64,000 nucleotides of DNA from Platycnemis pennipes (lineage: Eukaryota; Arthropoda; Insecta; Odonata; Platycnemididae). The stretch covers positions 2,294,001-2,358,000 of the forward strand of contig OW121857.1 of assembly GCA_933228895.1 (NCBI GenBank). Direction: 5' to 3'. Shown piece after piece: positions 4,591-43,157 of the stretch. The position numbers and the translations under genes are program-made. Each line of letters starts with the position of its first letter. The stretch's first letter is position 1. The notes beneath the pieces are model-generated. The model made no database searches and was not told where the DNA came from. It saw only the letters and a list, made by a program, of their open reading frames with translations.

Positions 4591-6033
4591 TCATTTGCCC
4601 TGATGATATACCTGGTTTTGTTATTCTCTGTGCTTATGACTATATAAAACAACCATTGTCATATCTGATCAATGAATCTCTGTCCTAAGGTGTTTCCCTT
4701 TCTGCCCTGAAACACTCTAAAATAATCCAAATTTAAAAAAACCTAAGGTTGTCCTAATGATGTTAAAAATTACAGACCTATTACCATGCAAAACACATCA
4801 TCCAAATTTTTTGAAAGGGTTGTTGCTACTCAGATACTTTCCTTATTGGAAAAAAATTCCCTTCTTATACCTAACCAACACGGTTTTAGGAATGGTAGAT
4901 CTTCAACTACCGCGGTTCATGAAGCCATTGATAAGCCATTGATTTCATCCTGTCATCACTTGACAGGAAGCGGAAAACCCTTGGTATCTTCTTCGATCTT
5001 TCGAAAGCTTTTGATCTGGCAAATCATCATCGCCTTCTCAAAAAAATCTTTCACTTGGGTATTAGAGGTATTCCTTACAACTGGATAGAAAATTCTCTCC
5101 TTAATCGCACTCAATTGGTGTCTCTTCTGGCTAATGGTGTGCATTACCCTTCAGAAGTAAGACACTGCTCCCTAGGAGTTCCCCAAGGTTCTACTCTTGG
5201 CCCAATATTATTCTTAATTTATATCAATGACTTGGATTATTATATTACTGACACTTCTAGTTATAATCTATTACTCTATGCTGATGATACAAACTTCCTT
5301 CTCTCCTCTCCTTCCTGCCCTAACTTGATTGATGAGGCTAAAAAATTTCAATACCTGGTGCCAAGAAAATTACCTCTGCCTCAACTCCCAGAAAACACAA
5401 TTAATTATTTCCTCTAAAAAAATCAATGAAATAAGGTCAAGTTCAATTATAGATCTATACAGCAGGTCAACTCGACAAAATTGCTCGGCGTTCACATCAT
5501 CGGCAACCTTTCCTGGGAAATGCATATTGATTCCCTGATGAAAAAACTTAGCTCAGTCTGCTATCTTATGAGATCCATACGTTGTACTGTGAGTCTAGAT
5601 GTCCTTAAGACACTATACTATGGTATCTTCTTCTCTCATATGACTTACAATATACTTTCTGGGTCTATTCCCCCCTCGCCATGAAGATTTTCAAAATGCA
5701 AAAACACCTAATTAGAAGTATTGCACGGAAATCATATCACTCTCCTGCCAGACCAATTTTGCAAATTTAAATATTCTCCCTTTTCCTTGTGTGTTTATAT
5801 GTCTTAGGGTGTTCATGTCCGACGATTTCTGCAAAACTTTCTATAAATGACGATTTTCATCAATATGTTACACGTAGTTAAAACAATTTTCACCAAGGTG
5901 CTAGTTCTGGCCCTAGAGAACTGGGCATCAAATTGTACAATAAATTTCCCAACTGGGTTGAAAATAGAAATTCTGTGAAGGGGATCAAACAAAATGTACA
6001 TAGTTTTTTTTATTGATAAACTGCATTACTCTG

Positions 6034-6177
6034 ATTGGTTCTGAGGTTTCCGCGGCGTTTCTCAACACTGGTAACGGCTTTCGGGCGTTCCTCCGCGTCG
6101 TGTGTTGTCAGGGTGACGACAGTTTCTCCAGCCATCCTGCTGGCGTCTTCAGGTCACTTCTGAAAGCCGTTACCAGT
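6034..6177 (-). mobile_element. Hammerhead-bearing short retroelement, copy A
   Basis: This 144-bp insertion is flanked by a 14-bp direct repeat with one mismatch: ACTGCATTACTCTG at 6020-6033 and ACTGCATTGCTCTG at 6178-6191. It sits inside the 3' untranslated part of the CR1/L2-like relic. A perfect 16-bp inverted repeat (6067-6082 with 6162-6177, ACTGGTAACGGCTTTC) encloses a hammerhead-ribozyme core on the minus strand. Its minus-strand 3' tail (GCGGAAACCTCAGA) resembles that of copy B (GCGGAAACCTGAGA), which links the two. It has no coding capacity. Known hammerhead-bearing mobile elements are Penelope-like elements and animal retrozymes; which of these mobilised this copy is inferred, not shown. 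Confidence 0.75.
6113..6157 (-). ncRNA. Minimal type I hammerhead ribozyme candidate
   Basis: On the minus strand the order is: stem I 5' GTGAC (6153-6157), core CTGAAGA (6146-6152), stem II CCAGC/GCTGG (6139-6143 with 6128-6132), GAAAC (6122-6126), a one-base loop, then GTC (6118-6120) and stem I 3' GTCAC (6113-6117). Stem I is five perfect pairs. Stem III is only A-U and C-G, the short form described for retroelement hammerheads. All invariant core positions (CUGANGA, GAAA, UH) are present and cleavage would follow C at 6118. A weakness is the base of stem II, where the first pair is not complementary (two unpaired bases on one side, one on the other), so activity may be reduced. Confidence 0.7.
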
Positions 6178-6338
6178 ACTGCATTGCTCTGTTAATGAAT
6201 ATTTAAATGGTTGCTTGTAACTTACTGGATCCACTCTCCGTTTGTACTCTGTTTTGTACATTTTTCCATATTTTGACGTCCCTTATATCCACTTCTATGT
6301 GATTTTTGGACAAATAAAATTACCTTCATCTTCATTAA

Positions 6339-7591
6339 GAATGTTTTGCAGACCTTGTGTAACCCTCTCACCCTACTCTCTTTTTCTTCCGCCGGTTATC
6401 TCAACTCTCCTTATCTCACACACACACTTACAATACATGCACATAAAATACAGGCAACAAGATTTTCAATTGATTAAAGAATACCACTCGTATTACTCAT
6501 GCACTCAATTGATACATTTAATTCCTTTGAAATCAAGAATTGGGTCCAATTTACATATCTGATACAAAACACATTTATATTAACCAATTAACAATTTCTC
6601 AACAATCTTATGAAATGGTCGTAAGAATGAAATGTTAATTGTTCCGATCCCTTTTACACTTATCGTGATTGGTGGGCCTGGAACCTCCCTCTGTGAGATC
6701 GGGCCGGAGTGCCGCGTCAAACTCCCGCCGACACCTTCCCCGTGATACTGCGCCTGCACCTCTCCGTCGATCACCTTTCCTCGCCTCTGCTCCTTAATCC
6801 TCCCGATGTGTCCCACTCTCGAGCGTCCCGTCTTATTTGTCCCGATCTTATACGCCGACGCGTCCTTCTTTCTCGTGGGCTTGCTCTTAACTCCATTGTT
6901 TATTTACAATCATTGTTAATCCGCCGACGCGAGCTCACATGGGAGCCTAATCGTTACGTTACACTTTCAAGGAGAGGGTCTGCTGTAAACTCCTGGCAAT
7001 GTTAATTCTTGGATTATTTTAGGATGTGTGATTTGTTATAAATGCAGGAGTCATCCTCGAGCTTAGCAACCAAATGACTTCAAACCTCAAATCGAGGAAA
7101 TCGTAAGATTGGTGTAAGAGCTGTGCTCCTTTCAACTGCGCAGAGGCGGAAAGCAGCTTGCATTTGATCGTGTTAGGGTTGTGTGTGAGCAGCATGAGCA
7201 CTATTCGAGGAATCGTTAGCAGAGCGATGAGATGAATAATTATCTCCGGAATATTAAGGTGATTGTGGCGTCATCCAGGCGATGGAGAGATTTGTAAAAA
7301 AATTAAATAATGAAACATAAAGCCAGTGAATGATTTTTTTGAGCAGAATACTCACCTAGAAATTATTTCCCAGGAAATCTCCTGTAAGTACATTCCTCAG
7401 AAAGAGGACTCGAAGAGTTTAGTCTAACTAAGCTTATGGCACATTTGGCACGTTTATGAAGGAAAAATGTGACCCCCGACCTCGACAATTAAAAGCCTGG
7501 CAATGAGCTATCGTTTTGTCAATTTCATTCGTGTACTATGCCTCCGTCCGTCGATGTAACCTTCCTAACTAAGTTCCATCAACATTCCCAT
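6339..7591. other. Non-coding stretch, nothing recognised
   Basis: Open frames near 6580-7005 lie on both strands of a moderately GC-rich patch and do not look like protein. No repeat with clear ends or splice-bounded exon is visible. Confidence 0.45.
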
Positions 7592-8187
7592 GGAATGGGG
7601 TAATTTATCATGCTTTTTCATTGCCGAATCTGTTAGAGTTTGTAAAATAAAAAGGCCAGCATTATTCCGTTTTTTGATCCGTCAATTATTTCTCGAGTTA
7701 TAAGTGGCTAAAAACTGATGTTCTTAACCCTTTCGGAAAGGTGGGCGTGCAAAGGACTCATACGTCTTCGTCCAATCAGAACTGAGACCTCAAAGCTCCT
7801 TCGCCTAATCACAATGGGGGACACACAGCTGACTCCGCCAATGGAAGTGGTTGCGACAGGATCTATGCGAGCAGATATCCTCCCCCCACCACTCCCCTGC
7901 CTTTCCTTTCCCTAGAAACAGCCGAGGATGACGTAGTAATTTTCAATCTCAGGTTTCCGCCGGGGTCCAACATTGTTTCAGTTTGCATACACGTACATTG
8001 TTTTTTTCCCGCAACAGTTTCACCAGCAGATTTTCCCGGCGTCTCCTCACCTGAGGACAGAGAGCAGCAGGGCCGGTGGAACTGTTGCGGGAAAAACAAC
8101 GTACGTGTATGCAACCCGATACAATGCTGGTCTCCAATGACGTAGTAATCCTTAACGCAGCTCGTTCGGTGGGATTCACCTTTTGCT
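7592..8187 (-). repeat. Dispersed repeat X, copy 1, split by an insertion
   Basis: In reverse complement this copy matches 19005-19425 and 59336-59737 almost end to end. Shared landmarks are the starting AAGCAAAAGGTG, the CACCGAA and GAGCTGC parts, a GATTGG..GAAG block, CTTTCCGAAAGGGTT, CACTTATAACTCGA, GACGGATCA and TTTACAAACTCTA. It ends near a CCCCATT stretch. The copy is interrupted at 7941-8136 by the hammerhead-type insertion B; without that and one duplicate of the target it would be about 390 bp. No coding capacity, terminal inverted repeat or poly-A is obvious, so the class is unknown. Confidence 0.8.
7941..8136 (-). mobile_element. Hammerhead-type short retroelement, copy B (nested)
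   Basis: The 196-bp insertion is bracketed by perfect 13-bp direct repeats (ATGACGTAGTAAT at 7928-7940 and 8137-8149). The equivalent place in the other two copies of repeat X has a single such sequence, so the empty site is visible. The insert contains near-perfect inverted arms of about 60 bp (around 7960-8023 and 8074-8135), including CCGCAACAGTTTCACC against GGTGGAACTGTTGCGG. On the minus strand the loop side holds GTGAGGAGACGCC and GGTGAAACTGTTG, an eroded counterpart of the hammerhead core of copy A. The 3' tail GCGGAAACCTGAGA is shared with copy A. The changed CTGA box and the GTT site suggest it no longer cleaves. Confidence 0.75.
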
Positions 8188-8934
8188 TATCATAATATTT
8201 GATTTTTGAGTGAATAGCTATGCTTAGAAGATTAATTTTTTTGCTAAAAGTCATTTTTCGTTTTCTTCTAACGATTTCGTGTACAAAATAACTTTGTTCT
8301 GAGTAAACGCCCCTATTATTGGTGAATGAAGTTAACACATCAAATTTTCTACCTAGCGTCTTAATATTACTTTTATAAGAATTGATTCATTATTATTAAC
8401 AAGCATTTTCAGCAGCGTAAAAAATAACTTGTGGTTATTAATTTAAATGAAATGTGGTTTGCTTCTTATTAACATACTTTGAGATGAAAAACCAGGCTAT
8501 TTGTCATATTCCTGATACATTTACCAAATGTTCTTAAATATTTAAGTGTCACGGTTCTACCGGTTCTGTCCAATATTACAACGCCCTAACTTAAATACCC
8601 ATAGTATCAATAGCTTTACGAAAAAGGTCTTTATCTTGTCACTTGATTCTGTTACTGTATTAATCCTATCCAGCATCTATCTACGTATCCTTTAGCGGAT
8701 AGTACTGAAGCCGTGGCAACGTGTCGAACATTTGTTTTTAGAATTCCTAGAGACGCAAATCTGAACATTAATAATTCCATAATTTAAATCAAACAAGATT
8801 TGACTCTTGCTTCGTGAATGAAAGAGACTTTATGATCTTTAGAGAGAGTGCTTCATTTTTCACCGAAGTGTCCTTTGTTGACGCTTTCCTGGGGTATTCT
8901 AATTTTGCATTTTAAAACGAACTCGGCGACTGCA
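8188..8934. other. AT-rich non-coding stretch
   Basis: No open frame of note, repeat or RNA gene seen. Confidence 0.55.
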
Positions 8935-9100
8935 ACTCTGGAATAGCCGCGAGGGCCTTCCTTTCCATCGCGCGGCATTTCAAGTTCAGTTCGGCGTACG
9001 CTGAAGTCCTCTTCCCCCGGCGGGGCGTCCTTGGCGCCTGGCGCCTCTCTCGGCCCGCGCCGCCGCCGCCGCCGCTGTTAAGCCTCTTCTCCGGGGTTGC
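8935..9100. promoter_or_regulatory. CpG-rich block, possible promoter
   Basis: This patch stands out from its AT-rich surroundings by dense CpG, ending in a (CGC)n run at about 9058-9076. A TCAGT at 8986-8990 matches the arthropod initiator motif. Downstream sequence to about 9200 is pyrimidine-rich, as 5' UTRs often are, but I find no convincing start codon with a following splice donor. The strand is not determined. Promoter function is an inference from composition only. Confidence 0.3.
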
Positions 9101-9808
9101 ATCGATTGCCTCTCTCTACAAAGCGCCACCCCTCAATTCTTCTTCTTCCCTCACTTCTCCTTGTTTGGCTGCTCTCCAAGTCTTTGTCGCTCGCAATTAA
9201 TTCCTCCCTCTCCAAGTATTTTACGCTTTTACGAGTTAGCAGTGCTTTAGAAATCGGGTTTGGGATCCACTGTGGCTCCCATATTGGCTGGAACTCACAA
9301 CTTGAGTCGGAAAATTGTCATTTCTGATTGAAGTGGCTGTCATACACTATGTCCCCCATCACAGCAGCCTAGACACATTGTACAAACAAAGGTCTCTCTC
9401 TATCTCTCTTTATGTTTGCTCTGAAACCGTTGACTAAGGTTCCTTTATTTCATTTCTAGATGACATCTAAGGGTCAGGAGTCATTTTTTTCCAATATCAT
9501 GTTTCCTGTAATTTTTATAGAGGTGTGGATTCAAAACTTGGAAAATATGGCTTTTAAATGAACCTTCTTGGAAAAATTCATGGAATATTTTTTTAAAAAC
9601 ATTCTTTAAAAAAACTGATGTTATCTACATGAAGGCGATGAAAATCAGGTATTAAATTACTTGAAACCTTATATTACTGCTTAGCTTAATTCAGTATGGA
9701 ACATTTCGTACATCTATTAGGTTTCCAGCTGCCTATTTAAGAAGCCGCATCATCAGTCATAAAGGAACTGTTGTTTGCCTTTTCTTCATTCTTCTTTTCA
9801 TTTCTTTT
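9101..9808. other. Non-coding stretch with an eroded hammerhead-like site
   Basis: Mostly AT-rich with a short TCTC-rich tract near 9393-9411. The segment 9721-9756, read on the minus strand, has CTGATGA (9750-9756), about 25 bases, then GAAAC (9721-9725), but lacks GTC after it. This resembles a decayed hammerhead core. No gene is supported. Confidence 0.35.
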
Positions 9809-10232
9809 CCTTCATGGCCACGAAAAGAAGGCAGACAAAGCGCCACACGCATTGGCTCCCGAAAGAGACGACTTGAAGTAGTCCACGCTGCAAAGATCTA
9901 CAACCCCTCGAGCTTCTTGGTCGTGGCTTGGAGGTTTTCGGATTGCCGATTGGTTTAGACTTTATATGGCTGATTCGTCGTAAATTAACCTTGTGGTTTC
10001 CGAAAATATACTCTTCCTTTAATTTCTTTGGGATACGTATGTTTACGTAGCTGCAACGTGACTTATTTTCGAAAAGTCTACTATTGATGTTCAAATCGTG
10101 TTTATTTTTCGTTACATGTTGATACGCTCAACATGTAACGAAAAGGTTTTGGCAGCGTAGAGAATTTCCACTTGTCTCTTTCGGGAGCCGCCGCGTTTGG
10201 AGCTTTGTCGTCCGATCTTTCGTGTCCATTGC
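9809..10232. mobile_element. Foldback element with about 80-bp inverted arms
   Basis: The left arm (about 9809-9892) and right arm (about 10148-10232) are imperfect inverted complements. The clearest shared core is GGCTCCCGAAAGAGAC, at 9853-9868 and, inverted, at about 10174-10189; ACAAAGC and CACGAAA parts further out also match. The interior holds a perfect 17-bp hairpin at 10106-10144. No transposase-like frame is present, so this looks like a non-autonomous foldback or MITE-type element. I could not define its target-site duplication. Confidence 0.55.
10106..10144. repeat. Perfect 17-bp hairpin
   Basis: Positions 10106-10122 (TTTTCGTTACATGTTGA) are exactly complementary to 10128-10144, with the loop TACGC between. 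It lies just inside the right arm of the foldback element at 9809-10232. Confidence 0.85.
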
Positions 10233-17182: not shown

Positions 17183-19004
17183 CAACGTGACGACCTTTGG
17201 TGTGACACGACCCTGGCAAGCAGAGGCCGACACCAGAACTAACAAACGGCGAAGAAGGAGGGGGACGATATTATTGTTGGTGGTGGTGCAGAAGAGGGAA
17301 TTGTTGGGGAAGAGGCTGGGTGATGAGGATAGGAATAGTTTTGCATCTTTCTCGATGCGGGGTGTCTTAGATAGGGGATCAAATATGGCTTTGATGGTTC
17401 TAAGGATACCAAAAATGGTAGGGGTCATTTGAAGATGAGGAGCGGGCATTTCGGGAAATAAATGGGCGGTAGAGCGGTTATCAGGAAGGATAGGGAAAAT
17501 GTATTTGACGGTGTGTTTGGGGAACTGTATGTTAGGGGTGTAAGTTGTGGAAGAAGAGGGGTTGTTTTCGCTATTTCATTTGTTTTGTGGGAGTGGGGTT
17601 TGTTAAGGACTTTTTGCTAAGTGCATGCGTATCTATTTGATGGTACTAAAGTAATGAAGTGCATATGAAGTTATTTTATTCGAAAATGCCTCTTGGTTCT
17701 ATTTGTTCTATCTGACTGGAGTTTTGCTACTTGACTGTCTTTCGTGTATGCTGCGACCACATTTTTATATAAGTCGTTTTGGACAGCGATGTAATGCAAC
17801 ATAAGCCGGTATTTGAGTTTGGTACGTGTGATAAACCATCAAAATACGAAGTAAGAGTTATTCCTTTACCGACAAACAATTAGAAGGATATCTTCTAGGG
17901 CCTCTAAATAATATAAATAATTTTATGAATGACGCAAATATTATATGGATGCCGACGATTGGGATCCCAACTTGAAGTCCATCCTCGGGGTAAATGATGC
18001 TGTCACCGTCTTGCATAGCCTTAAGGGTCCTCTTTTATGTATACTCAACGGTCGTCATTGTTGCACACGTTCATGCAACTGATTGGTCGGCTTCTAGCCG
18101 TTAGGTTTTGAAACTGCAAGGGTTATTTTCATCTTTATTTTTAGACATTTTAATAATTCTCTTGGCGGAAAATATAAAAACATTTAAAGCATGCCAAACG
18201 TGTTTACAATTGGTCATACATAGACTGCAATCAAGAAAGAAAAATGAGAACCTCAGCAAAGAGGTGAAGACACAGATGGTTTTCATATTGTTCGATTCTA
18301 TTTGAGGGAACCACAGCTAGCGTCGGATTTTTTTTCCGTGAAAAGAGTATGGGAATAAATCTTCTTAGCAATGTTTAGGCTATCAATAAGGAAAATTGAA
18401 AAGGGAGAAGAATTGCATATTTTTTTCAGTGATAAAAGTAGGATTTCTAGTAGAAACCGGAATGTACTAAGTATTTAAAATTCGAGTGGTTTGTCTTTAT
18501 GTTTGATGCATTATTATTCTAACCGCCCTGGGTCATTCCCTCAATTCCGTTTCCTGTCCATTCCTTTGCCTTCACTTCCATCCTCACTCTCAGGGCTCTT
18601 CATCATGTTCACTCAAAGGACAATTTTTTGTTTTATTTCTAGAACGCTGCCAATCAAGGACTACTTGGGTAATATTTAATGTCCTATTGGTGTTTAATTT
18701 ATTGTGTACATATGGGAAGAATAAACTGTAAGTTTTCAACGCCACTTCCAAGTTCATTTGAGCAAGTTGGCACTTTTAGTACTGCCAACTGGAATTCTGG
18801 TAACGCCATCACCAGTCTAGTTAATTTTTATATCGCTTTCCATTGCAACTGTCAGGTTTCTGAAGAGGAATGGGGGCAATGTTCACTCGGAACCGAAATC
18901 GCAATTTTGTGCACGAAATCGTTAGATGGAAACGAAAAACGAATTTTAGTGAAAAAATTAATCTTCTAACCACAACCATTCACTCATAAATCAAAAATTA
19001 AAAT
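17183..19004. other. Non-coding stretch
   Basis: A G-rich purine patch at about 17250-17460 keeps frames open on both strands. The remainder is AT-rich. No supported gene or paired repeat. Confidence 0.5.
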
Positions 19005-19425
19005 AAGCAAAAGGTGACGCCCACCGAAAAAGCTGCTGTGATAACATTGACGTCATTTTCCTCCCGTCCTTGACTGCTCTTATGGGAAGGGAAGGGAGTG
19101 GAGGGGGGTTCTCGGAAGGTCTGCTCGTACAGATCCTGTCGCAATCGCTTCCATGGGAGAGCCAGCTGTGTCTCCCCCCCCCCCCCCCCCCCCATTGCGA
19201 TGAGGCGAAGTAGCTTCTCGGGCTCAGTTGTGATTGGTCGAAGTGGATATACGTCAGAGGTTGCACCAATCCTACTTTTCCAAAAGGGTTAAAAACAACA
19301 GTTTTTCGCCGCTTATAACTCGATAGATAATTGACGGATCAGAAAACGGAAAAATGCGGGTCTTTTTACTTTACAAACTCTATCAGATTCGTCAGTAAAA
19401 AAAATATGGTAAACGACCCCACTGT
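19005..19425 (+). repeat. Dispersed repeat X, copy 2
   Basis: The copy starts with AAGCAAAAGGTGACGCCC and runs to about CCCCACTG. It is closely similar to 59336-59737 along its whole length and to the reverse complement of 7592-8187. At the site where the third copy has a short C run before ATTGCGAT, this copy carries an expanded C tract of 20 bases (19174-19193). It has no coding capacity. It supplies the intact empty target site (TTGACGTCATT) for insertion B of copy 1. Confidence 0.85.
19174..19193 (+). repeat. Poly-C tract, 20 bases
   Basis: An uninterrupted run of C inside repeat X. The homologous place in the copy at 59336-59737 has a run of only 8, so the tract expanded after the copies diverged or is an assembly-sensitive site. 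Confidence 0.9.
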
Positions 19426-22400
19426 ATCAAATTGTTTGTGAGATATTGAAATAGAATTTTATGCCATTAACATGAGACAATTATTGTATCCTTTTTACAT
19501 ATAAAAGAAAATAAATTTCTCAATTTTAAGTTAAATTAGTGAACTATGTAAAGAATGCCCAACATGAAACCTAATGCAATTACTTCACTAAGGCTAAAGT
19601 CAGGAAGTCAAGGAATGTTTTTGTGAAACTAAGAAATTGGGCTTACTCTCCATAACGTTTATTCAGGAAAAGCGTGCTGTGGATAGCTCACATTAGGAAA
19701 ACACACTTTCCGTTTTTATTAATGATCCATAAATCAAGTGAAATTGAGGTGTTCTTCCCTGAAATTTTAGGTTCCCCTCCCTTATTTGGAATTTTTAATA
19801 TTTTATACGATGTATGTTTTCATCGATTGACATTTTACCTGTAATTTTGCAATGATTTACAAATTATGTAGCCATAAATAATATTTACTGGTGGTAAACT
19901 ACACATCATAATACATTTTTAAAATTGTAATTTCTAGGTACGGTATATTTGAGCAATTCCCTAGATTTATGGAAATGTTTACAATTTTATTTGATTAAAT
20001 TTGAAATTGGACTCAAACCTGAGTGTTCTATTCTGTTATCTGAAACCTCTTGAAATGATCAACGAAGGGACTTCTTGCAACAGCAAATGAATTTTCATTG
20101 CTTTAACAAAGGGACCTATTTTGAATGAGGCGTAATTTTGGTTCGAAGTTTAAGTTCGTGTGATTCCAGCTCATACTCGTAACAAGGGAAGCATTTTGTG
20201 ATCAGCACTCCGGTATGGAAAAGGAATTGAAAGGTGGTATGGGTTTCCCTTCTCTGGATAATATCCTATTAGTTAGTGTTAGGACGAGGGCCGGATTTGT
20301 TGTCTGCGCATGAAAATGCCTCATTTCTTCTTTCAAATTCTTCCATTTTCTTTCCAGCCTATCAATTATCCTTCGATCGACATTCAATGTGCCTTTAGGC
20401 GCCAGAATTACTGAACCGTTTGCCTCAGAAGATTGTACTTGCCTCGAGCAATGTACTCAGAGTAATTTCATTCGTCTCTGAGGGAGCATCCCTTCCTTCA
20501 GCTGTCTTAGTTCTCATCATGCTAAAGCTACGTAAAATACAAAGTCGTTGGAAATAGAATCTCGGGGCAACAGAAATCTCGTGTCCTTTCATTGAGTATT
20601 TCAAAAGATTTCAGCCAATAAAATGGAATTCGCAGGGTTTACCGCCACGTGTAAAGTCCACAAAACTATAAAAATGAAACATTTTCACAAAGAAATGTGA
20701 ATTTTTCCGATACAGGATATATATATTCAAATTTGGAGAACACATTGTAAAATGCACTTGAACACAATCTGGGATTGAAGTTTTTGGAAGCGCAACGTGT
20801 TTTTTCAGAAATAGGTTTAGTTGGAACGTCAGTAGAAACTGTTTTTGCTTTTAAATAGCACGCATAGAGTTTGTATTTTACCACCCAGATGAAGAATAAA
20901 TAATAAGGATAGCCTGTGTTATGTTAGGCGTATCAATGGAACCGAGTGGAATAAATCTCTTACGCAAATTAATTTCCGGAATGTGCACCAACCTTAATAG
21001 CGATAAAGATACAATAGAATTCAGTTGTTTTTAAATGCCCTTCAGCGTATAACTTTACAGCTCTTCCGCATAAATGGAGTTAAGTAGTAAGATTTTTTTT
21101 ATTTGCTAGGTACTATAAAGTAGCTATAGGTATATTTATGAAGTAATGATACTAAGTACTGTGCTCATCCCAACAGTACTCAAGTACTGTACATGTTTTG
21201 GCGTTAGTTTTTCTGAATGTATTTCATCCATTTTTATGTTATTTTAAATATTTTCAAACTCTACTGCTTTTCTGTATTATGCTTTATTCCAAAAATATAT
21301 GCAGTGATACTTTGACTCAAGAGAATAATTCGTTCCTCGACTGAGCTCGTAATTCAAAATTTCTCGGAAGTCAAATCCTTTTTTTCCATATCCATTATTT
21401 TAAATTCCAATATACCGTTCTAACAACAAAAATGTCCTTTTAAATTTGGGTGTTTAATAAAAAGCAGGGACATAATACTTAATGACAAATATGCATTACT
21501 TAAAAACGCAATAGATGATATATAACTGATTTTTGCTAGCCATACTGAAAGACAAACCTTTTCGAGAAGATTAGTTTCTAGTTTTGTTTTCCCTTTATGA
21601 ATATTTCAGAAAAAGTTCATTTAAAAAATATAAGAATAAAAATGCTAATTAGTTCCTGATTGTCATCCAATAGCTCCGATACAGCCCAGTTATTGCCATT
21701 TTTTTTCCGAAATTCCTAACATTTATTTCACTCCAGTTGTATAGAGGTAGCCTCCTCATTAGGCTCAACCATGTATAACCAATTCAATGCACTATGCATG
21801 TTGTCTGCCACTTCAACTCCTCCGTTGTCAGTTCCTCGGAGTGTTTCTTGACGAGCTCCTTCAAATTTTCTACATCCCCAGCCCCAAGTCCATACACTTA
21901 GAAGGACACAATCACCTTCTCCACTGCCACTTCAAGATCCAATCTTTTGAAACCCTTTCGACACAACCTCAGGCAACATCTGATTCCACGCAGAGGACAA
22001 GGTCTTCCATGTAACATCTTGCCAGGCCATATTCTGGGGAATGAAAGGATGTTATTGTGGTATTCCTCACGTAGTTATCCTTCCAGAATTGTCGAAGGGT
22101 GAAGTTTGTGCTCTTTGTAACCGCAAAACATCGGAAGAAGAGGTGCTTGGCGAAGAGCTTCTTGAAATCACGTGCTGGTCCATGGGCTGCAGAATGGAGA
22201 GTAGCATTGGGTGGACGATAGAGAAACTTTGTAATTAAATACTCGTCACGGACGTCGTTTTCAATGCATTGCATTTGCGTTCACTTCAATTTACTTCATC
22301 ATTGATGACTGAAGAGGTTTAGTGCAGCGTGAATTAATGCTGATCAGATTTCAATTCTTCAGAAAAACTTCGTATTTTTCTAAATTGCCGGGACTCTCAG

Positions 22401-23417: not shown

Positions 23418-23606
23418 AATCGTCGAAGGAAAAGTGAGCGGGAAGAATGGAAAAGGCAGGCTTCGTATGAGGTATATGGAGCAAGTTGTGAAGGATGTAA
23501 AAGAGAGGAGCTACGTTAACATGAAGAGGTTGGCCGATAGAAGATTCGAGTGGAGGACTGCGTCAAACCAATCCTAGGATTGTTGACCGATAATGATGAT
23601 GAGAAA
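23418..23606 (+). mobile_element. RTE-type retrotransposon, short 3' end
   Basis: The frame reads GKNGKGRLRMRYMEQVVKDV followed by YVNMKRLADRRFEWRTASNQ and a stop, nearly the same as the C-terminus at 890-1233 on the minus strand. It ends with an ATGATGATGAG trinucleotide tail at about 23593-23603. Only the last 60 or so codons remain, as expected from incomplete reverse transcription. Confidence 0.75.
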
Positions 23607-23929
23607 TATGTAGTGCTGGGTGGGTAGAAATAGCAGTGACTGCCAATCTTAGGGCTTGAATCAGCCCAGACTTGAGTACGTTCGATTATGTTACCGCACT
23701 TGAATCTCGAAAGATTTCCAAAATCTCTGTCCATCGACTGAGCCATAAAACTGTCGACTCCTTGGTGTCTTTTGTTGAAAGAATGCCGAGACCATGTTTC
23801 TACCCACTCATCCCCGTACTTCCTGCCTGACAATTATTTAAAGGAAATTAAATCAGATAGTACATTGTTTTTTTCACACCACTGAAACTAGTATTTGATT
23901 GAATCCAAAACTGGATTTCAATATGTTCC
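23607..23929. other. Non-coding stretch
   Basis: A minus-strand frame of about 100 codons (23516-23833) overlaps the RTE relic and has no recognisable motif. Part of this stretch may be the body of the SINE whose tRNA-like head is at 23930-24005. Confidence 0.4.
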
Positions 23930-25293: not shown

Positions 25294-25297
25294 TTAA

Positions 25298-26351: not shown

Positions 26352-26355
26352 TTAA

Positions 26356-27279: not shown

Positions 27280-27710
27280 TATTTGGACCATGGAAAAATC
27301 AAGAATGAAGTAGTCAGTACCCTAACAATGAGGGCATCCTACCAAAAGAAAAATCCACTTGCAGCTGAAAATACAAGCATAGAAGTAAGGAAAAAAGTCA
27401 TCAGAACGTACATAGAACGGAAGAAGAGTGGGAGAAATGATAACTCTTCTGAATACCATAAGAAGGACAACGAAATCGGCTGCATTATGAGACATTATGA
27501 TGTAGCCGATTATGACATTATGATGTCTGATGAAGACTATCATTGAATGACAATTGCACGACAAGAACGGCACAGAGGGGCCTCGTATGAGATGCATAGA
27601 GCAAGTGATGAAGGATCTAAATGAGAAGAAATACGTAAACATGAAGCTAATAGAAGAATTCAGCGGAGAGCTGCGTCATACCAAATACAGGATTGTTGGC
27701 TAATGATGGA
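27280..27710 (+). mobile_element. Decayed RTE-type retrotransposon 3' relic
   Basis: The first 45 codons contain AENTSIEVRKKVIRTYIER, which matches the region behind the RTE reverse transcriptase, and a later frame carries RMRCIEQVMKDLNEKKYVNM, the tail block seen at 890-1233 and 23418-23606. Between them an expanded CATTATGA repeat near 27482-27525 and frameshifts disturb the reading. The conserved tryptophan-rich middle part is missing, so an internal deletion is likely. Confidence 0.65.
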
Positions 27711-32893: not shown

Positions 32894-32907
32894 CAATTTT
32901 CATAGTT

Positions 32908-33098
32908 AAGAAAGATTGCAATTTTTCCCGTCGTATGCTTGTAGTGAGGGTGATCGGGTGCTCCACGGAGTCAATTCTTCCATCTGAGTGATGAAGTGCT
33001 TCACTCGGCCCTGAAGATAGAGAACGACTCTCGTTCTTCGAGACGTTGGCAGCGATGGAAGCGTTGACCCGATGGAGCACCCGAAGAATCTTCACCAC
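32908..33098 (+). mobile_element. Hammerhead-type short retroelement, copy C
   Basis: A 191-bp insertion lies between perfect 14-bp direct repeats (CAATTTTCATAGTT at 32894-32907 and 33099-33112). Imperfect inverted arms of about 31 bp (TCGGGTGCTCC... at 32953-32983 and its inverse at about 33054-33084) enclose a hammerhead-like core on the plus strand. There is no coding capacity. Size, duplication length and layout agree with copies A, B and D, although its outer sequence is different, so it would be a separate subfamily. Confidence 0.7.
33006..33052 (+). ncRNA. Eroded hammerhead ribozyme core
   Basis: CTGAAGA at 33011-33017 is followed by a 7-bp stem II (AGAACGA 33021-33027 with TCGTTCT 33031-33037, loop CTC), then GAGAC (33040-33044) where GAAAC is expected, and GTT (33045-33047). 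Stem I has three pairs next to the core (CC.G at 33008-33010 with GGC at 33048-33050). The A-to-G change in the invariant GAAA box should abolish or strongly lower cleavage. Confidence 0.55.
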
Positions 33099-33271
33099 CA
33101 ATTTTCATAGTTGATTTCTTGCATTTTACTTTACCCAAATAGATTTTTCTGTAGAAAATAGTATATACCTTCTAAACACTGTACTTCTGCTTAAAACGTC
33201 ATTAGGCCTCTGGCAAGAAGCGAATCTCTCTCAAGAACGCCTCTCAGTTAAAGAGCAAGGGCGAGTACGTC

Positions 33272-33612: not shown

Positions 33613-35254
33613 ATATATCAAATGTTTAGTTCGGAAGGAAAAGAGCGATTATATGTATATTAACCTTTTCATTGATATGTATATTAATAATTATGCAAAT
33701 ATAATATACTAAGTTAAAAATAGGTACTATATACATTTACAAGTAGCCAACTGCTCCGCCGTCTTTTGTTATTCTCTTCAACAATGCTTCGAAGCCTATA
33801 ACAATGGAAGCGTGCTTCTGTGCTTTGGCTTCGTAGCATGCTTTTATCCCAGAGTGCTTCGCGTTCGGATATACTTCGGGTGTTTCCGACGATACCCCCC
33901 TCCACTTGCAAGCAAGCATTGTAGTATGGTCAGCGCCAAAAGCACACGTTTTGGACAGGGCTGGTGTCTCTTGCACACGAAGAAGGAAGCTCAAATAGGT
34001 GCCAGGTGGCAGTCGAAAAATGGCTAAATAGCACCGTAATGCTTAACTTTTGACTGAAAAATTAATTATTTCTTCATATAACATGTATTTCATATATTTA
34101 TACTTTTAATTTGTCAATGAGTTGGTAATCTGTGAATTGAATTTGCAATTATATGAAAATACAAATAGGTAATAATGAAACTGCTGCTAGATAGCTTCCA
34201 ACGACATTAGGCCTTCATATGTTAGGTACATCTAAAATAATTTTGTATAGCTTAATATTAATTAATTACTTTTAATGAGGTAGGTATTAGTATGAATGAG
34301 ACAGCATGACCTCTATTTCAACTCATTTTTGAGTTTTCTAATATTAACTACTACAACTATTTCCGTTCAAGCCACGGCTTAATTTGGCATGTATACGAAC
34401 GGGTTGATTTTATCTTAAAGATGGTGCTCCCTGTCACCACCCTGTAAAGAGCACACAAGATTCTCCTCCAAGTTCTGTCTTATCATTCACTCCTCATAGC
34501 TCTTTGCCGCAAGTTCATTCAATTCCCTCATTCCCGCGTAATTCCAGTTCTTATGTCATACACTCGTATCTCTTCTCCGATTCGCTCTCCGTGATCCTCT
34601 TGAGAAGTGTGTTTGGCTTCAGGACCCTTCGGGATCTTCGTTATATAACCCGGTCACATTTTTCCTGCTCATATAAAGACAGGCATTCAGTTTATCCCCT
34701 CCCGGGCCTCACTGGAGGGCCCTTCCAGATGAAAGGACCACGGCTCAACTCCGAACGGTCTCTCCTCCTCCCGCGGTCATTCAGGTCACGTTGGGCACAG
34801 AAAAGGCGATAGTAAAAAATGCGGCCTTATTTTTTACTGCCTCTGCTCACTCGCGCTGAGAATTTCGGGAAAAGACGGTCAGCTGCTCCATCCTCCTCCA
34901 ATAGGACGGAGGCCTAAGTCATCCTTCGGTCACCTCGGGTCATTTTGCTTGCTATTTAATTTGAAATCCTTTGAAAGCTAGCCTTTGGGGACTCTTTATC
35001 TGCAGACCATATTAATCGTTTCTCTCCACCCATGCCACCTTTGAATGATTTCGTCCGGTGTCCGTTTTTATTTTTTATGATACACTTTTAACCATTGTCA
35101 CCTTAGACGTTGCTTGAATAATGTCCTCTTTGCACATCGGTGATGAGACAAAACTAAGCTCGATGATTGGAATTTCAAATACTTGAAAAATACTTCCCCA
35201 TTTGCAAAAAGCAATGTTTACAGACTTTCTCTTTCCGGCACAAGCGTCATACAT
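33613..35254. other. Non-coding stretch, one protein-like frame
   Basis: On the minus strand 33737-33994 is open for 85 codons and its composition (rich in A, K, E, G; ending KRITKDGGAVGYL and a stop) looks more protein-like than its neighbours, but it has no ATG start and I recognise no family. It may be a gene or transposon remnant. The rest shows nothing. Confidence 0.3.
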
Positions 35255-35800
35255 CATCTTCAGTCAACAGACTATTTTTGACGCAGCTCTTCACTTCACT
35301 CATCCCATAACCTCTAGGTCCCCTTCGCATTCACTTAGTTCTCCACCACATCTTTAACCACTGATATCATATATCCTCTACGGAGTTTTCCTTTGCCATT
35401 CACTGTTCACTCGACGACTGTCATAACAAGACCATCAAGATAGGGCCGATTCGGTTCTTCTCTCTTTACTCCTGGTCTTCAACAGAATTCTCTTTTCTCC
35501 CACTATTCTCAAGGCTTCATTAGTCACACGGTCTTTCCATTTGACATTCATAATCCTTCTGTAGTACCACATTTCAAATACTTCCTGCCTCTTCTGTGGT
35601 TTTTTCCATGTCTCACTTTCACAGAAAGTGCTCAGATGGATATTCATATTAATTGTTCCTTTACTTTTCCACTTGTATTTTCAATTCTAGAACATGCACT
35701 ATTTACTTCAATGAAGGGATATCTCGATCGCCAGGATTTGTTGATGACAAACTAACACTTGTTCATAAAAGGTCGACCATGTGAAACTCAACTAAGTCTT
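35255..35800 (-). mobile_element. Decayed RTE-type retrotransposon 3' part
   Basis: On the minus strand, CESETWKKPQKRQEVFEMWYYR at the start corresponds to the CETWT..E...L..FEMW block behind the RTE reverse transcriptase. MNVKWKDRVTNEALRIVGEK and ILLKTRSKERR follow, then in other frames a weak tail (about 35300-35435) matching the basic C-terminus of the other copies. Frameshifts and stops show decay. The element's catalytic part is absent. Confidence 0.7.
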
Positions 35801-36519
35801 TTGTTCGTGATATTTCAGTTTCAAGAGAAGGTATAAGTAGTAGTAGTAGTGAATTTATTGCTTTCAACAAACATCAAATATTGAATTACTAATCATAATT
35901 TAAAAAAGATTATGATTATACATGCATTGCTATCGCATTCAATTTTTTTCATTCAAAAGTCCAAGAAGTTAGCAATGAACAAAACTGTCATTAGTATCTG
36001 AATTATTATTGATGTGAGTATAAGTACAGAACAACTAGTAAATTTGTGTGCAAGGAGAAAAAAATCTGGTGGCATATAAGATCTTACGTTATTTGTATCC
36101 AGTATATAAATTACCTTTTTCTACAATTTTCTACATTTTTTATTTTCTTGGGCAACAAATAATAAACTTTGATAAACAAATGATAAACAAATAATGTTTA
36201 TCTTTGGGTTTTGGCGCGAGGGACTCGATTAGTACACCACCACGATCTAAGACACCATCGTGATCTCTGAAAAGACGCATGAAATGTCACATGTTTAAAA
36301 TTATCACAATTTCAATGGTAACGTCCTCAGATCCTTCATGGAAGATTTCTCTTGACCCTCCAAGGGCTACGCAAGGGCCATAGGTTGCCAGGTGTGGGCA
36401 AGCCAATTTGGGACAGGCAAAGTGAGGGAAAGCTAAACGTGCAGATACATAGGTCAATACCTTAGAAATCATTACCAGACCGTAGGGTTGTATTTAGCTT
36501 AATCTATTGAGTTATTTCT
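35801..36519. other. Non-coding stretch
   Basis: Contains a short AGT trinucleotide run near 35834-35850. Nothing else recognised. Confidence 0.5.
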
Positions 36520-36892
36520 AATAAAGTACTTTTTCTGATGACGTTAAATCATCTTGTGAACCCCGAAATACTATTATAGAGTAGATATTGAACACAAAAT
36601 GAGAGACAGTGATTGCCAAACCGACAGATTTAAAATGTCTTTCTTTCCTCGTACAATTAGGAATATGAACAGTTGTAAATATATCCAATACAAGTATATC
36701 AATGGATGGCATAGGAAGTTGATTGTTGGAATAAGGGCTTGGCTTAAGCTAATCCAACTAAAAGCATTGTTTTTGCACGCTTACTTTGTTCTATAAATCT
36801 TTTTAAATTGTTATGTTTTGCCTAGATATAATGCATCCTCTTTAACGCACGTTGGGTGTGAATCCACCCGCTGCCACACACCTTCATGGTGG
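36520..36892 (+). mobile_element. CR1/L2-like family Y, 3' fragment
   Basis: It matches the end of the copy at 56960-58672: DRFKMSFFPRTIRN near 36622-36665, the AATAC.AGTAT...AATGGATGGCAT part, and the 3' hairpin CCGCTGCCACACACCTTCATGGTGG at 36869-36892, where the match stops before the usual GCAGGG and the (GATGTA) tail. It is truncated at both ends. Confidence 0.7.
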
Positions 36893-37849: not shown

Positions 37850-38050
37850 ATAGCAAGATATTCTACAGAGAAAAAAATCAATCGCCGGGACTCGACCCCG
37901 AACCCCCTGATTTCCGGCCAGGTGCTCTACCAGTTAAGCTACCTAGAGGTCCTCTTTCTTATTAAAAAATAATAGAGGCTTTAAAGGGGCCAGCTTTCCT
38001 GGCCGGAAGTCAATGGGAATGTTTTTTTTCTCTGTGGAATATCTTGCTAT
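37850..38050. mobile_element. TIR foldback element carrying a tRNA-like body
   Basis: Inverted ends of 28 bp with one mismatch (37850-37877 and 38023-38050, starting ATAGCAAGATATTC) enclose 145 bp. One inner half is a tRNA-like sequence on the minus strand (37878-37956). Part of its anticodon arm (ATTTCCGGCCAGG at about 37910-37922) recurs inverted at about 37994-38006, so a second inner stem exists. The combination of DNA-transposon-like TIRs with a Pol III type body is unusual. A target duplication is not evident. Confidence 0.65.
37878..37956 (-). pseudogene. tRNA-like sequence without acceptor stem
   Basis: On the minus strand an A-box TAGCTTAACTGG fits TRGYnnAnnnGG exactly and a B-box GGGTCGAGTCC has one departure from consensus. 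D arm (GCTT/GAGC), anticodon arm (CCTGG/TCAGG, loop CCGGAAA) and T arm (TCGGG/CCCGG, loop GTCGAGT) all fold, but the seven bases on either side do not pair into an acceptor stem, and position 33 is C rather than U. It is therefore a tRNA-derived pseudogene or SINE-like head, not a working tRNA. A formal anticodon would be GGA. Confidence 0.6.
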
Positions 38051-40474
38051 TGCGCAGTTTTAGCGGGTAACGTCGCTAAAGTTTTCGCGGCCAGTTTTCG
38101 GACTTTGAACGTATTATTTTCTGTTTAGAAATTATTATTAACAGGTTTTTCATGTCGGCTACTACATGGAAGAAACCTCAATTATTTTTAATTTATATCT
38201 TATTCGGGAAAAGTATAATAATGCCTATTGTCTTCCCTGATTGCAGTAGAAATCAGGCTGCTTCTGTACAAATCGATAACGCAATATTTTTGAAAACTTA
38301 TTTCACGTACAATACTCCCTCGCCTCTGTTCGTCTTGCGGTATTTCAGGTATAGATTGCTGGGAATACTACGGTCGCTTTGTCCAGGGAGCGATTCGATC
38401 TTTTAGAGGTCATCGTTTATCAAACGATATTTGCATCCGATATCCGAGTTCACCGCAGCATAGCTTAGGTTGCCAGCTGCAGTATGATTCAAAAGTGCAT
38501 TCCTGAGAGTTTTCCAATGTTCTGACCTTCGCTGTGAAATGCGTACCCATTCGAAACTCGCATCGTAAATGCTCAGCTGCAGGAGATGTACATTTGATGG
38601 AGGATATTTTATTACATTCAGTTGTGTGTGTACTAGTGAAACTTATCTGCTTGACCATGGTACGCAAGTGAAGTAGATATTAGGTGAAAGGCTACAAACC
38701 CCAGAGTGCATTAAAAAGGGCATGATGATAACATTTTCTCTAGTGTGCGTGTCTTTTAGTGATAAACTGTAAATCCTAAGTGAAGAAATGGATTTTGGTT
38801 TGTTCCTGTGGATCATATCAATTGCGGTTAACTTGAAAAGCCCCTTGATGGAACTTTATAGAAGGCAAACCTGGTTTCATCACATTGTGTCATTTTCTGG
38901 TGACCTTGAGATAATGCAATCTGTTTAAATCTGTATTATTGTCAATACCATTTATCAGTGGCGTTTGAAAGTGAATTTTATTATTTAACCTGTATACTCT
39001 ATTTATTTAGCGTACTTCCCTGATATCTACTATTGTAATATTGTATTCCCTAGAGTAAATAATAATAATTTGATATAATGGTGTTCGGGACATGTGGATG
39101 ACTCTATTCCTGCTCACACTTGGAATTTTCAAATCTTTCTCATGAATTCGTGTTCAGCTATGAAGAAATTTGTACGGCCACGCATCGGAATAAAGTCTGA
39201 AAATTTGAAGAAGCTTTCTCAGAATTTACATTTGGGAACTGCATTGATGCCAGGAGTCGTGCGTTGGTTAAGGGTCGAGGGTACAAGTCGAGGGAGTTGA
39301 GGGGTTGCCCGTAGGGATCAGGATACATGCGGTTTGAATCGTTGATCATCAGTGTCTCGTTAATGTAAAGGAATATGCACGATATTTCGTGACCTCATTC
39401 ACAGCAGCTCCCTCTTCTTCTCTCGTCCAATGCACCAATGCCTTCATTCGTGTCGCGCCAAATACTCTCCGTCGCTGCTCTTGCTTATGTTCATCGCCTT
39501 TAACTTTCACTTCTCCGCAGAATACAACCACAATAAACAAAGTGATGGTTGCGTTCGTTTTAATCATTATGAAATTGGGTGTGTATGACGTTTGTCTGTC
39601 GTGAAATCTCATTCTCGCGATTTTAGTTTCCACACATAATATCTTTCATTTTGCCTGATAATATGAAATCAACCCTCGAAGTAGTTTGAATTTTAGCGAC
39701 ACTCATTACTTTAAAGTCCCAAGGATGCCTGCTTTTCAATGTCATTATTTCATATGTCTTCGAATGCCTACATTTAAATACCTATCTATTCATTTGAAGC
39801 CCTTAGTTTATTGAAGTTCTAAAACGTACTACTCACACAATAATGTTTCGCCCATCAAAGGCATGTAAGCGAAACGGAGTATAAAGTGTAGATAGCAGTT
39901 AGTAGCAGTACATGTGTTTTTAAATATGAAGCAGAACGATGAACAAAATGCTTTCTGTTAATACCTAGATAAACTGCGAATCCAGTCTTTACTTTACTTA
40001 CGGATTTGCTTTATTGATCTATCTTTGCTGATTGCTAATTTAATGCCTACTCATGATTTTAGTACGTAAATTATATCACATAAGTATTCATGCTGAATAT
40101 AATCTATTCATTTAGGCCCGGGGTGTTGGCTCTAACGTATGGTTAAGAAATATTTGGGTTTTCAACCAATTTATTGGTAGGAAAATGCTAATTATACTTT
40201 GTTACTTTGTTACGCAACGGTTTACTGAATGCTATTTGAAACTGTTGCAAAAGGTTTGTTTCGTTAAGAAGTAAGAAATAAAAATAGAAATTGAAATGCA
40301 TGCATGAATTAATGCATGCCAATTTCGCATTCTTACGCAGTTTATGCAAATTACTTGTCTGTTCAAGACAGTCGTTAAAAACCTGGCAGTGTGTACTGTC
40401 ATACTTGATAATATTATGAAGATGCAAGGTTTAGAGCTCCTGAGGTTTTAACTGAAGACATTAATTTGTTTCAG
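38051..40474. other. Non-coding stretch before the EGF exon
   Basis: Probably intron or upstream DNA of the EGF-like gene. Open frames at 38410-38667 and 39349-39633 (minus) and 39389-39604 (plus) have no recognisable motifs. No further EGF exon was found by eye. Confidence 0.45.
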
Positions 40475-40569
40475 GCATATTGGGTCCACGGCGATACGCT
40501 GCGAATGTCCAAAAGGATTTGTTGGACCATTGTGCCAAGGTAGAGTGGCATACGACGGCAACCACACTG
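40475..40569 (+). CDS. Internal exon of an EGF-like-domain gene (1)
   Basis: The 95-bp exon follows a TTTGTTTCAG acceptor and ends at a strong GTGAGT donor. In the frame with one leading base it encodes 31 residues including CECPKGFVGPLC, the C4-x-C5-x8-C6 half of an EGF domain with the usual G-F-x-G turn. A linker ending DGNHT follows. It ends in phase 1 (a single G), and the next exon at 43464 starts with AT, which restores a GAT (Asp) codon and an open frame. EGF repeats are found in secreted or membrane adhesion and matrix proteins, but I cannot tell which gene this is. An earlier GTAGAG donor at 40540 is possible but weaker. The intron to the next exon carries a CR1/L2 fragment and a hammerhead-type insertion. 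Confidence 0.7.
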
Positions 40570-40916
40570 GTGAGTATTGCCTTTCGAGTGAGTCGCTGTT
40601 GTTGCTACTTGCTTTGCATTCAGATTCCCTACGATCGTGACATTATTTAGGAAGTTAGTACCTATCTGTGAAAGTCATTTCTTGTTGTGCTTAAGCTGTA
40701 TATATTGACGAAGAACATTATATATGTTTATATTTGTTATATTGATACATGAAACTAGGGTTGACGCTAAATTGTAACATTTACAAGTAATATCTAACCT
40801 GCAGAATAATGTATTGTTTTATGGAATAAATTTTGTTCTAGATTATTAACAGAAAACTAATAATATTATCACTTAAAAACGATTAAAAATATGGATTTTA
40901 TAGCACCAAGTGATTG
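40570..40916. other. Intron sequence between EGF exons
   Basis: AT-rich, no features seen. Confidence 0.5.
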
Positions 40917-41530
40917 CGAGAAATCAGCTACTTTTCCCTTGTAAGACCTCATTTGGAATATGCTGCCAGTGCATGAGATCCCTATGAAATCGGTCTAAAT
41001 AACGAACTTGAACGTTTGCAGCGAAGATCGGCAAGATTTGTAAAGGGACGGTACGATAACCTTATTAGCGTAACCAGTCTGTTAAATGAATTGAAATGGG
41101 AATCATGTCAGATCGCAGGTTGAAATTCAGACTTAATCTCTTAAAAAAAATTCCAAGACCATATTTTCAGTGATGATGTTAAAAATATTTTGCGAACCCC
41201 AACTTAGTTTGGTTGACTGGACCATCATTAGAAAATTAGAGAAATTGATTTCCGAACAGACAGATTCAAAATGTCCTTTTTTCCTCGTACTATTAGGGAT
41301 ATGAATAACGGTAAATATTTCCAGTACGAGTTTAGCAATGGATGAATACCTTCTGACAGCAAGTTTTTGCATGCTTAGTTTGATATTTTTATCTTTTTTT
41401 TAAATAGTGTAGTTTAGAACAGTATATAAATACAAATCCTTTTTTATGCATGACATGTAGTGCATGTTTGTTGAGAATTCACCCCCTGTTATGGTGGCCT
41501 GCAGGGTGTTATGTAGATGTAGATGTAGAA
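40917..41530 (+). mobile_element. CR1/L2-like family Y, 5'-truncated copy
   Basis: It starts abruptly at GCGAGAAATCAGCTAC, matching 58165 onward in the fullest copy, and continues through LVRPHLEYAAS, RLQRRSARFVKGRYDN and DRFKMSFFPRTIRDMNNG to the 3' hairpin and a GATGTA hexamer tail ending at 41530. It retains about 120 bp (from 41011) that the 56960-58672 copy has lost. Stops and a frameshift (near 41105) make it non-coding. It lies in the sense orientation inside the EGF gene intron. Confidence 0.8.
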
Positions 41531-43002
41531 GTGATCTAATATTTAGAGGTAATCCTATGTTAGTATACTCCGGCATATTCTCCCTGTCTCTTATCATTAT
41601 CTTCTTTATATAAAAGCAGGATGTTTTTTCTTGTCTGCCCATCTTTCCGAATGAGCGATCGTTCCCTCCTGTTACTCGGAAACTGTTCTGTCTAGAGGGA
41701 TGCCGTAAACTGCACCTAGTTTAGATCTGCTTTACAGGCCTGGAAAAACTGTTGCCATTTTTGTGAAGGCTCGGGTTCGATACTTGGCCTCAATTGTGTG
41801 CTTGCGTTTGTTTAATTTAGATTTTTAATTAAACAATATGCAAAACTTTTCACTCAGAAAAATAATTTCGTTGTGATCAATTTTCTTCATTTTTTCTTTA
41901 TTTATAAGAAAAGACTTTGCACTTTTCTCTATTTTTTCTTTCCTATTTCTGTAATCGCTTTTAGCAGTCAAATTCAGATTTTTCTCAAATGTTCCGTTGC
42001 ATATACTTTTATTGGATTTTTTCGCTTCTTTTCCGATCCTTAGCCCAATTGCAATTGCTACCTCCGACTGAAAGTATTGCTGTTCCTTACAGTTCGTCTT
42101 ATTAGTACCGAGAAGCAGCTTATTCTGTAACGATGCTTTAAGGTACTGTAGGCTGCGTCGTATCTGATTCTTGAAACAAGGTTCGCTGTTTCATTCGACA
42201 TATTCATTTGAGCTTAGTGCTCGCGCTTCTCATTGTGGTTTTTGTACGGGGTAAAGCTAACTGTGGTAACATGGATAATGTAATGAATAAGAAACATGCC
42301 CTGGAAAGAAACGTGAAAAAAATCACCAAACATAATGGCAACGTGAAAAAAATATTGTGCATAAAAATGTGTCGTGTCAACAGTAAAACGTATGCAAGTA
42401 AGCAAACGAACGCCGTGAGGGTAGTTTAAATATTTCAAATTTGTACCAAAATTTTGGAATGGAATTATCTCCGAAGGAAACAAATGTTTTATAAGAATAA
42501 AAATTAGGGCGTTGCAGACTCATGCAAACTCCGCAAGAAACCTTAGAGAACGAGCTGTTTTGTGCCGAGAAGGCGAGAAATAATCCTTCCCTAGCACCCC
42601 TATTCCGGCATCATTTTCACCCGTATCTGCATATGTCCTCCTATACTCCTTACAAGTTTTACTAGAACGTTGAAAAAATGTCGCCCATCTAAAATATTTG
42701 AACTTAATTTTTTGTGAAAAGTCGTGACGCGTGTGGAATGGTGTTTTCGCGGCGTATGCTGCGGTCAAAGTCTCTCGGAGCAGATCTTCGATGGCCGACG
42801 TTTCGAAGGTCAACTCGTGCTCCAGCGGCTTCAAATGTGTGTCCGGTGTATAGCGACGTATGCTTTCTGCTCTTAAATTTTTATTCCAATGACGTTGTTG
42901 CATCATTTTTATTCTATTCCACTCTGTAATTATCATGCCGTGTCCTTCTGTTCCATTCCATTGTTGTCAAAGCCAAACTATAATATTATTGCAAGTTCTG
43001 AA
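41531..43002. other. Intron sequence, one coding-like antisense frame
   Basis: On the minus strand 42520-42936 is open for 138 codons, with a stretch HLKPLEHELTFETSAIEDLL near its middle that looks protein-like and is GC-richer than its surroundings (42715-42850). I recognise no family. A transposon remnant is the simplest reading. On the plus strand a hydrophobic frame at 42208-42429 begins with TTG, not ATG. Confidence 0.3.
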
Positions 43003-43016
43003 GTTAACTACTAGTA

Positions 43017-43143
43017 AAGGCAGTTGTTTCAGGCTTGATTTGGTGGAATATCATAGCGAAAGAAAAGGACTGGCAATTTTCCACAAAAATAAAGAATTTT
43101 ACTTGACCGGTTTCGGTGTACAACACCATCTTCACCATCTTTC
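43017..43143 (-). mobile_element. Hammerhead-type short retroelement, copy D
   Basis: A 127-bp insertion is bracketed by perfect 14-bp direct repeats (GTTAACTACTAGTA at 43003-43016 and 43144-43157). On the minus strand it begins almost directly with a hammerhead-like core and continues for about 90 bases with no coding capacity. The start lies in or next to stem I, which suggests 5' truncation. It sits in the intron between the EGF exons, antisense to the gene. Confidence 0.75.
43105..43137 (-). ncRNA. Hammerhead-like core, C3 changed
   Basis: Minus strand: GTGAAGA where CTGAAGA is expected (43129-43135), stem II GGTGT/ACACC with loop TGT (43115-43127), GAAAC (43110-43114), and GTC (43105-43107). 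The sequence ACCGGT after GAA is a perfect palindrome, so stem III would have three pairs and no loop in a monomer but could form between two RNA copies; such palindromic stems are described for retroelement hammerheads. The changed first core base and weak stem I argue against activity of this copy. Confidence 0.55.
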
Positions 43144-43157
43144 GTTAACTACTAGTA

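Follow-up and report, generated by a model that had tools for sequence, protein, structure and literature searches.

The window analysed here, a 64-kb stretch of Platycnemis pennipes contig OW121857.1 within which all scans, counts and self-comparisons were made, contains four short insertions (A–D), each bounded by direct repeats of 13 or 14 bp and each carrying a sequence that resembles the hammerhead ribozyme core (Table 1). A first-pass annotation of the stretch had described such repeats at the edges of all four, and they were indeed found in place, that of A with one mismatch. When perfect direct repeats of at least 13 bp at a spacing of 110–260 bp were sought, with low-complexity words excluded, three pairs were obtained, one each for B, C and D, compared with a mean of 0.1 and a maximum of 1 in 30 dinucleotide shuffles. 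Allowing one mismatch in 14 yielded seven pairs, A–D and three others. Because such pairs also arise in shuffled sequence (40 shuffles, mean 1.8, maximum 6), the duplication of A alone is weaker evidence. A candidate fifth insertion, E, is weaker than A–D.

For B there was independent proof of insertion, because paralogues of the repeat that it interrupts lack it. Self-comparison of the window revealed three copies of this host repeat, 73–85% alike. The paralogue at ~18869–19436 aligned to both flanks of B, with identities of 73% on the left and 80% on the right, and that at ~59335–59736 aligned to the left flank (76%) and to a short stretch of the right flank. Both were continuous across the site and contained the target core ATGACGT once, whereas at the filled site B is flanked on either side by the 13-bp target. 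Both paralogues also had 11 additional bases immediately to the left of the site, and the target end differed too, as is expected for repeats so diverged. A–D were confirmed as genuine insertions.

Table 1. Insertions, flanking duplications and internal features in the 64-kb window
Feature	Position	Strand	Description
Insertion A	6034–6177	-	144 bp; flanked by 14-bp duplications with 1 mismatch
Duplications of A	6020–6033 / 6178–6191		ACTGCATTACTCTG / ACTGCATTGCTCTG; 1 mismatch
Core of A, hammerhead-like	6115–6152	-	CTGAAGA ... GAAAC ... GTC
Hairpin of A	6067–6177	-	16-bp perfect arms, 6067–6082 / 6162–6177
Tail of A	6040–6053	-	GCGGAAACCTCAGA
Insertion B	7941–8136	-	196 bp; flanked by perfect 13-bp duplications
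Duplications of B	7928–7940 / 8137–8149		ATGACGTAGTAAT; perfect, 13 bp
Core-like sequence of B, minus strand	8007–8050	-	GTGAGGA ... GAAACTGTTGC
Core-like sequence of B, plus strand	8051–8088	+	CTGAGGA ... GGAACTGTTGC
Tail of B	7947–7960	-	GCGGAAACCTGAGA
Interspersed repeat split by B	7581–8317		inverted paralogues without B at ~18869–19436 and 59335–59736
Insertion C	32908–33098	+	191 bp; flanked by perfect 14-bp duplications
Duplications of C	32894–32907 / 33099–33112		CAATTTTCATAGTT; perfect, 14 bp
Core-like sequence of C	33011–33044	+	CTGAAGA ... GAGAC
Hairpin arms of C	32954–32984 / 33054–33084	+	within insertion C
Insertion D	43017–43143	-	127 bp; flanked by perfect 14-bp duplications; no hairpin
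Duplications of D	43003–43016 / 43144–43157		GTTAACTACTAGTA; perfect, 14 bp
Core of D	43105–43135	-	GTGAAGATG ... CGAAACCGGTC; ATG at 43129–43127
Insertion E (candidate)	56736–56907	-	172 bp; core-like CTGACGA ... GTAAAC
Duplications of candidate E	56720–56735 / 56908–56923		16 bp, 1 mismatch

The strict hammerhead pattern CTGANGA...GAAACNGTNGTC had a single match in the window, on the minus strand within A, and none in 100 shuffles. Cores of the CTGAnGA/GAAAC/GTC type had been ascribed to all four insertions; sequences like this were present in each, but the full literal core was found in A only. The core of D, GTGAAGA...GAAAC...GTC, differs by one change (G at the C3 position). C has CTGAAGA...GAGAC without GTC, and B has GTGAGGA...GAAAC, also without GTC, on the minus strand and CTGAGGA...GGAAC on the plus strand. 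Judged by eye, none of A–D combines intact core bases with intact stems I and II, and no hammerhead was returned by Rfam for the whole window (E-value 5) or for the surroundings of A (E-value 10).

A relaxed core scan, the rules of which were fixed after A–D were already known, gave 8 matches, compared with a mean of 2.65 and a maximum of 6 in 40 shuffles. They included A, C, D and a match at 56842 (minus) in candidate E; B was not among them. Both boxes were perfect in two matches, and GTC was present in two (A and D), while shuffles averaged 0.225 matches with GTC and never had more than 1. The other four matches (4600, 56042, 11902 and 9756) fell outside the duplication-bounded spans. With span and match positions entered by hand from the scans, 4 of the 8 matches lay inside seven such spans (1,382 bp, 2.2% of the window), where 0.17 were expected. 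The Poisson probability was 3 × 10–5, and as many were obtained in 1/100,000 random placements and in 241/100,000 circular shifts, most of the latter presumably being small shifts. The three spans beyond A–D contained one core match against 0.048 expected; the spans 8281/8417 and 17390/17636 contained none and were still counted. This enrichment, albeit from a scan designed with A–D in view, is the best evidence tying the core to the insertions. Separately, it was observed that CTGATGA ... GAAAC at 9721–9756 (minus) has both core boxes perfect and no GTC, with no flanking duplication in the scans.

When A and B were compared in the same orientation, they aligned along most of A with a score of 40, which was reached by 0/400 mononucleotide and 1/5000 dinucleotide shuffles, and by none of the window pieces compared with A (0/946) or with B (0/947). 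The core of A scored 35 against the opposite strand of B, with 0/400 and 3/5000 shuffles as high. The remaining ten comparisons were weaker, the best being A–C reverse (19/400), C–D reverse (21/400) and B–C reverse (36/400). The tail GCGGAAACCTSAGA, reported earlier as common to A and B, was identical in both, and no third match with up to two mismatches was found in the window; at this tolerance, two or more matches occurred in 8/100 shuffles. On sequence comparison, A and B appear to form one family, and C and D to be two singletons. The first-pass annotation had placed all four in a single family resembling short interspersed nuclear elements (SINEs), of which the kinship of A and B stood, but C and D were not clearly similar either to one another or to A and B. 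Two pieces at 63766–63950 scored at least 35 (up to 39) against B, on both strands, and no element was discerned there.

These comparisons bear on whether the hammerhead likeness might be a product of chance and selection by eye, with A–D being ordinary short RNAs mobilised by long interspersed nuclear elements (LINEs) or unrelated small insertions. Duplications of 13–14 bp are compatible with LINE machinery, LINE-type reverse transcriptases are present in the window, and the isolation of C and D, the perfect-box match at 9756 outside the insertions and the silence of Rfam would all be explained. Nevertheless, such an origin was considered improbable, because half of the core matches fall within 2.2% of the window, the strict pattern in A was not reproduced in any of 100 shuffles, and the kinship of A and B extends through the core region.

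Long hairpins were found in A–C. The folding z-scores were –3.15 for A, –10.83 for B and –6.87 for C, and none of 200 shuffles per insertion folded as well; no such excess was observed in D (z 0.12) or candidate E (z –0.77). Read in the sense of the core, the hairpin lies at the 5' end of A, and at or within 1 bp of it in B, and is followed by 3' tails of 33 bp (A) and 21 bp (B) that contain the shared tail motif. B is a head-to-head palindrome centred at ~8050, the halves of which align over 66 columns with 55 identical, 9 mismatched and 2 gap columns. Both halves start with (C/G)TGAGGA, followed at equal spacing by GCYGGTGRAACTGTTGCGGG, and a core-like sequence is present on both strands. 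Although hairpins of this length might suggest that A–C were fold-back elements or miniature inverted-repeat transposable elements, we rejected this as highly improbable: the arms do not reach both ends of the insertions, 33 bp of A and 21 bp of B lying beyond one arm, D has no hairpin, and we know of no DNA transposon family with duplications of 13–14 bp. An origin from a tRNA-derived SINE was also rejected, since A–D had no tRNA or 5S match and no A-rich or simple-repeat tail was seen by eye at their ends.

The duplications of A–D differed at 1/55 positions (95% interval 0.05–9.7%), and the hairpin arms at ~10/66 positions in B, 5/31 in C and none in A. Assuming that arms and duplications diverged over equal time, the probability of perfect duplications was 0.12 for B and 0.085 for C, jointly ~0.01. 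These results suggest that B and C inherited their imperfect hairpins from source copies, and that the imperfect cores perhaps arose there too. Part of the core divergence probably also predates insertion, because the duplications differ at one position only. The different states of decay proposed for the four copies are therefore doubtful, although the interval still permits some decay. This inference of age is only suggestive, as discovery via long duplications favours young copies.

Retrozymes, as described in PMC7229834 and PMC4918200, are small hammerhead retroelements whose duplications are large and whose RNA is highly paired. A–C could be decayed monomers of metazoan retrozymes, i.e. 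RNAs that were cleaved by type I hammerheads, circularised, and then reverse-transcribed and inserted by the machinery of LINEs or Penelope-like elements (PLEs), with D being separate. The lengths of B (196 nt) and C (191 nt) fall inside the published range of 170–400 nt; A (144 nt) and D (127 nt) are shorter. The fraction of paired bases was 0.77 in B, 0.68 in C, 0.51 in A and 0.55 in D, compared with means of 0.53–0.55 and maxima of 0.70–0.71 in 200 background pieces of equal length, so that B exceeded all background pieces, C was barely above the 95th percentile, and A and D were ordinary. Repeats with 15-bp duplications have also been described from Nematostella (PMC4918200). A–D share with metazoan non-LTR (long terminal repeat) retrozymes the small non-coding unit with a type I hammerhead-like core, large duplications and, for B and C, a highly paired RNA. 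They differ in being single rather than tandem dimers to multimers, no tandem array having been found at A–D in the window; in their non-canonical cores, not recognised by Rfam, in place of a canonical type I hammerhead with loop–loop contacts; in the GC content of A–C (51–56% versus less than 50% as published); and, for A and D, in length. A retrozyme origin of A–C was regarded as unlikely. The Sm-alpha-type SINE-like elements of schistosomes (PMC8490949, PMC4918200) are similarly short, dispersed and furnished with a type I hammerhead; a full tRNA is reported for the schistosome repeats in PMC4918200, whereas A–D have no tRNA match. According to a review, metazoan retrozymes are possibly to be regarded as a new SINE family, and a curation guide agrees with reserve (PMC8969392).

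D invited comparison with PLEs, since minimal type I hammerheads have been published in PLEs and as dispersed sequences in animal genomes (PMC7761336, PMC6155905, PMC4918200). In PAc, a PLE of Anolis, the open reading frame (ORF) is described as beginning inside the hammerhead after G8, with the cut at +26; reverse transcription begins internally at +111–118 of the ORF, where genomic copies end, a site mapped using one purified enzyme (PMC11167929). As in PAc, an ATG immediately follows core G8 in D, and the cut would fall after +25 (counted by eye). The 3' end of D is at +113, inside the interval of PAc, the yardstick here being one other PLE. D resembles PLEs with minimal hammerheads in having no real helix III, an ORF start in the core and a 3' end at ~+113; 5' truncation likewise occurs in those elements, and their head-to-head inverted repeats resemble B. 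The insertions differ from PLEs in the absence of a coding part, in the duplications of 13–14 bp and in the long hairpins of A–C. The frame of D is open up to its 3' end, which is weak evidence, since an open frame of this length carries little weight alone.

The exact core string of D and a pattern of its body each had 0 matches in viral contigs. The pattern CTGAWGATG...CGAAACCGGTC was matched by 3 viral and 61 bacterial or archaeal stretches; these were taken as chance, because the best 25 by stem II had no more than 3 contiguous pairs and came from bacterial or archaeal records. In the literature, the core string of D matched only papers that were unrelated, judging by their entries.

On balance, we favour the reading that A–D are retroinsertions of hammerhead-bearing RNAs, most likely made by a PLE, with D a truncated PLE tail and A–C non-autonomous. 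The earlier proposal of ribozyme-bearing SINE-like elements is retained in that the insertions are retroelement-like and carry hammerhead-like sequence, but D has no hairpin and fits a truncated Penelope-like start. The RNAs would be inserted by target-primed reverse transcription, most likely by a PLE reverse transcriptase/endonuclease, which would nick the two target strands ~13–14 bp apart. Copying would begin inside the RNA, ~80–115 nt downstream of the hammerhead core, and would halt shortly past the core, so that the 3' distance would be set by the family and the 5' end would vary. The distance from the core to the 3' end was 113 nt in A, 104 in B, 101 in E and 82 in C, and the sequence before the core amounted to 25 nt in A, 86 in B, 65 in E, 103 in C and 8 in D. 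An enzyme that starts at a set distance and stops soon afterwards would explain both the presence of a core in every short insertion and the variable 5' ends. D would then be a 5'-truncated PLE tail, and the A/B family and C would be non-autonomous hairpin relatives mobilised in trans, either retrozyme-like or descended from the terminal repeats of PLEs. The palindrome of B would need self-priming, to which the palindromes and head-to-head inverted repeats of Adineta PLEs have been attributed (PMC3846280). The insertions with their duplications, the empty site of B, the hairpins of A–C and the concentration of core-like sequence in duplication-bounded spans were observed directly, and from these features we infer the PLE enzyme, the internal start, the self-priming of B and past self-cleavage.

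Several observations weigh against this preferred reading, the silence of Rfam among them. C ends merely 82 nt past its core. An ATG at the core position is found in D only; A has none, and its frame from that position has a stop, as do the frames of B, C and E. The frame of D, used as a protein query, gave no candidate relative, and no GIY-YIG domain was found in the 8 ORFs scanned out of 36, of which 3/8 carry LINE-type RVT_1. The duplications reported for Adineta PLEs are 8–10 bp (PMC3846280), compared with 13–14 bp here.

The two-stranded layout of B might also be read as a sign that B belongs, with the family it came from, to an ambisense type of hammerhead element, in which each strand would yield a rod-like RNA with a hammerhead-like core that could be cut in either polarity, as in viroids, and which would spread by retrotransposition; we consider this very improbable. 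The palindrome of B seems to have diverged before insertion, and if the elements were ambisense, they would propagate as hairpin copies.

Other repeats were also observed in the window. Broken LINE-type reverse transcriptase genes lie at 56923–58441 and 4599–5648, and LINE-related 3' parts near 36465–36892, 40914–41526 and 48807–49430. The largest RVT_1 ORF resembles LINE-type proteins, pearl oyster being the source of two of the few named matches. At 37850–38050, a 28-nt imperfect inverted repeat flanks a tRNA-like stretch (Rfam tRNA, 37884–37942 minus, 34.8 bits), which is perhaps a SINE or a tRNA-derived fold-back element. A second dispersed repeat family, 62–88% alike, occurs at 888–1179, 3441–3616, 23418–23607, 27421–27708 and 35247–35518.

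The class of element proposed here has already been published, and our result adds to it a probable family and singletons; the A/B family and the two-stranded layout of B may be new. Provided that D and A are read correctly, short tail insertions would preserve the start position of Penelope-type reverse transcription and the spacing of the strand cuts. A family of hairpins bearing a core on each strand would, if real, connect animal retroelements with viroid-like RNAs.

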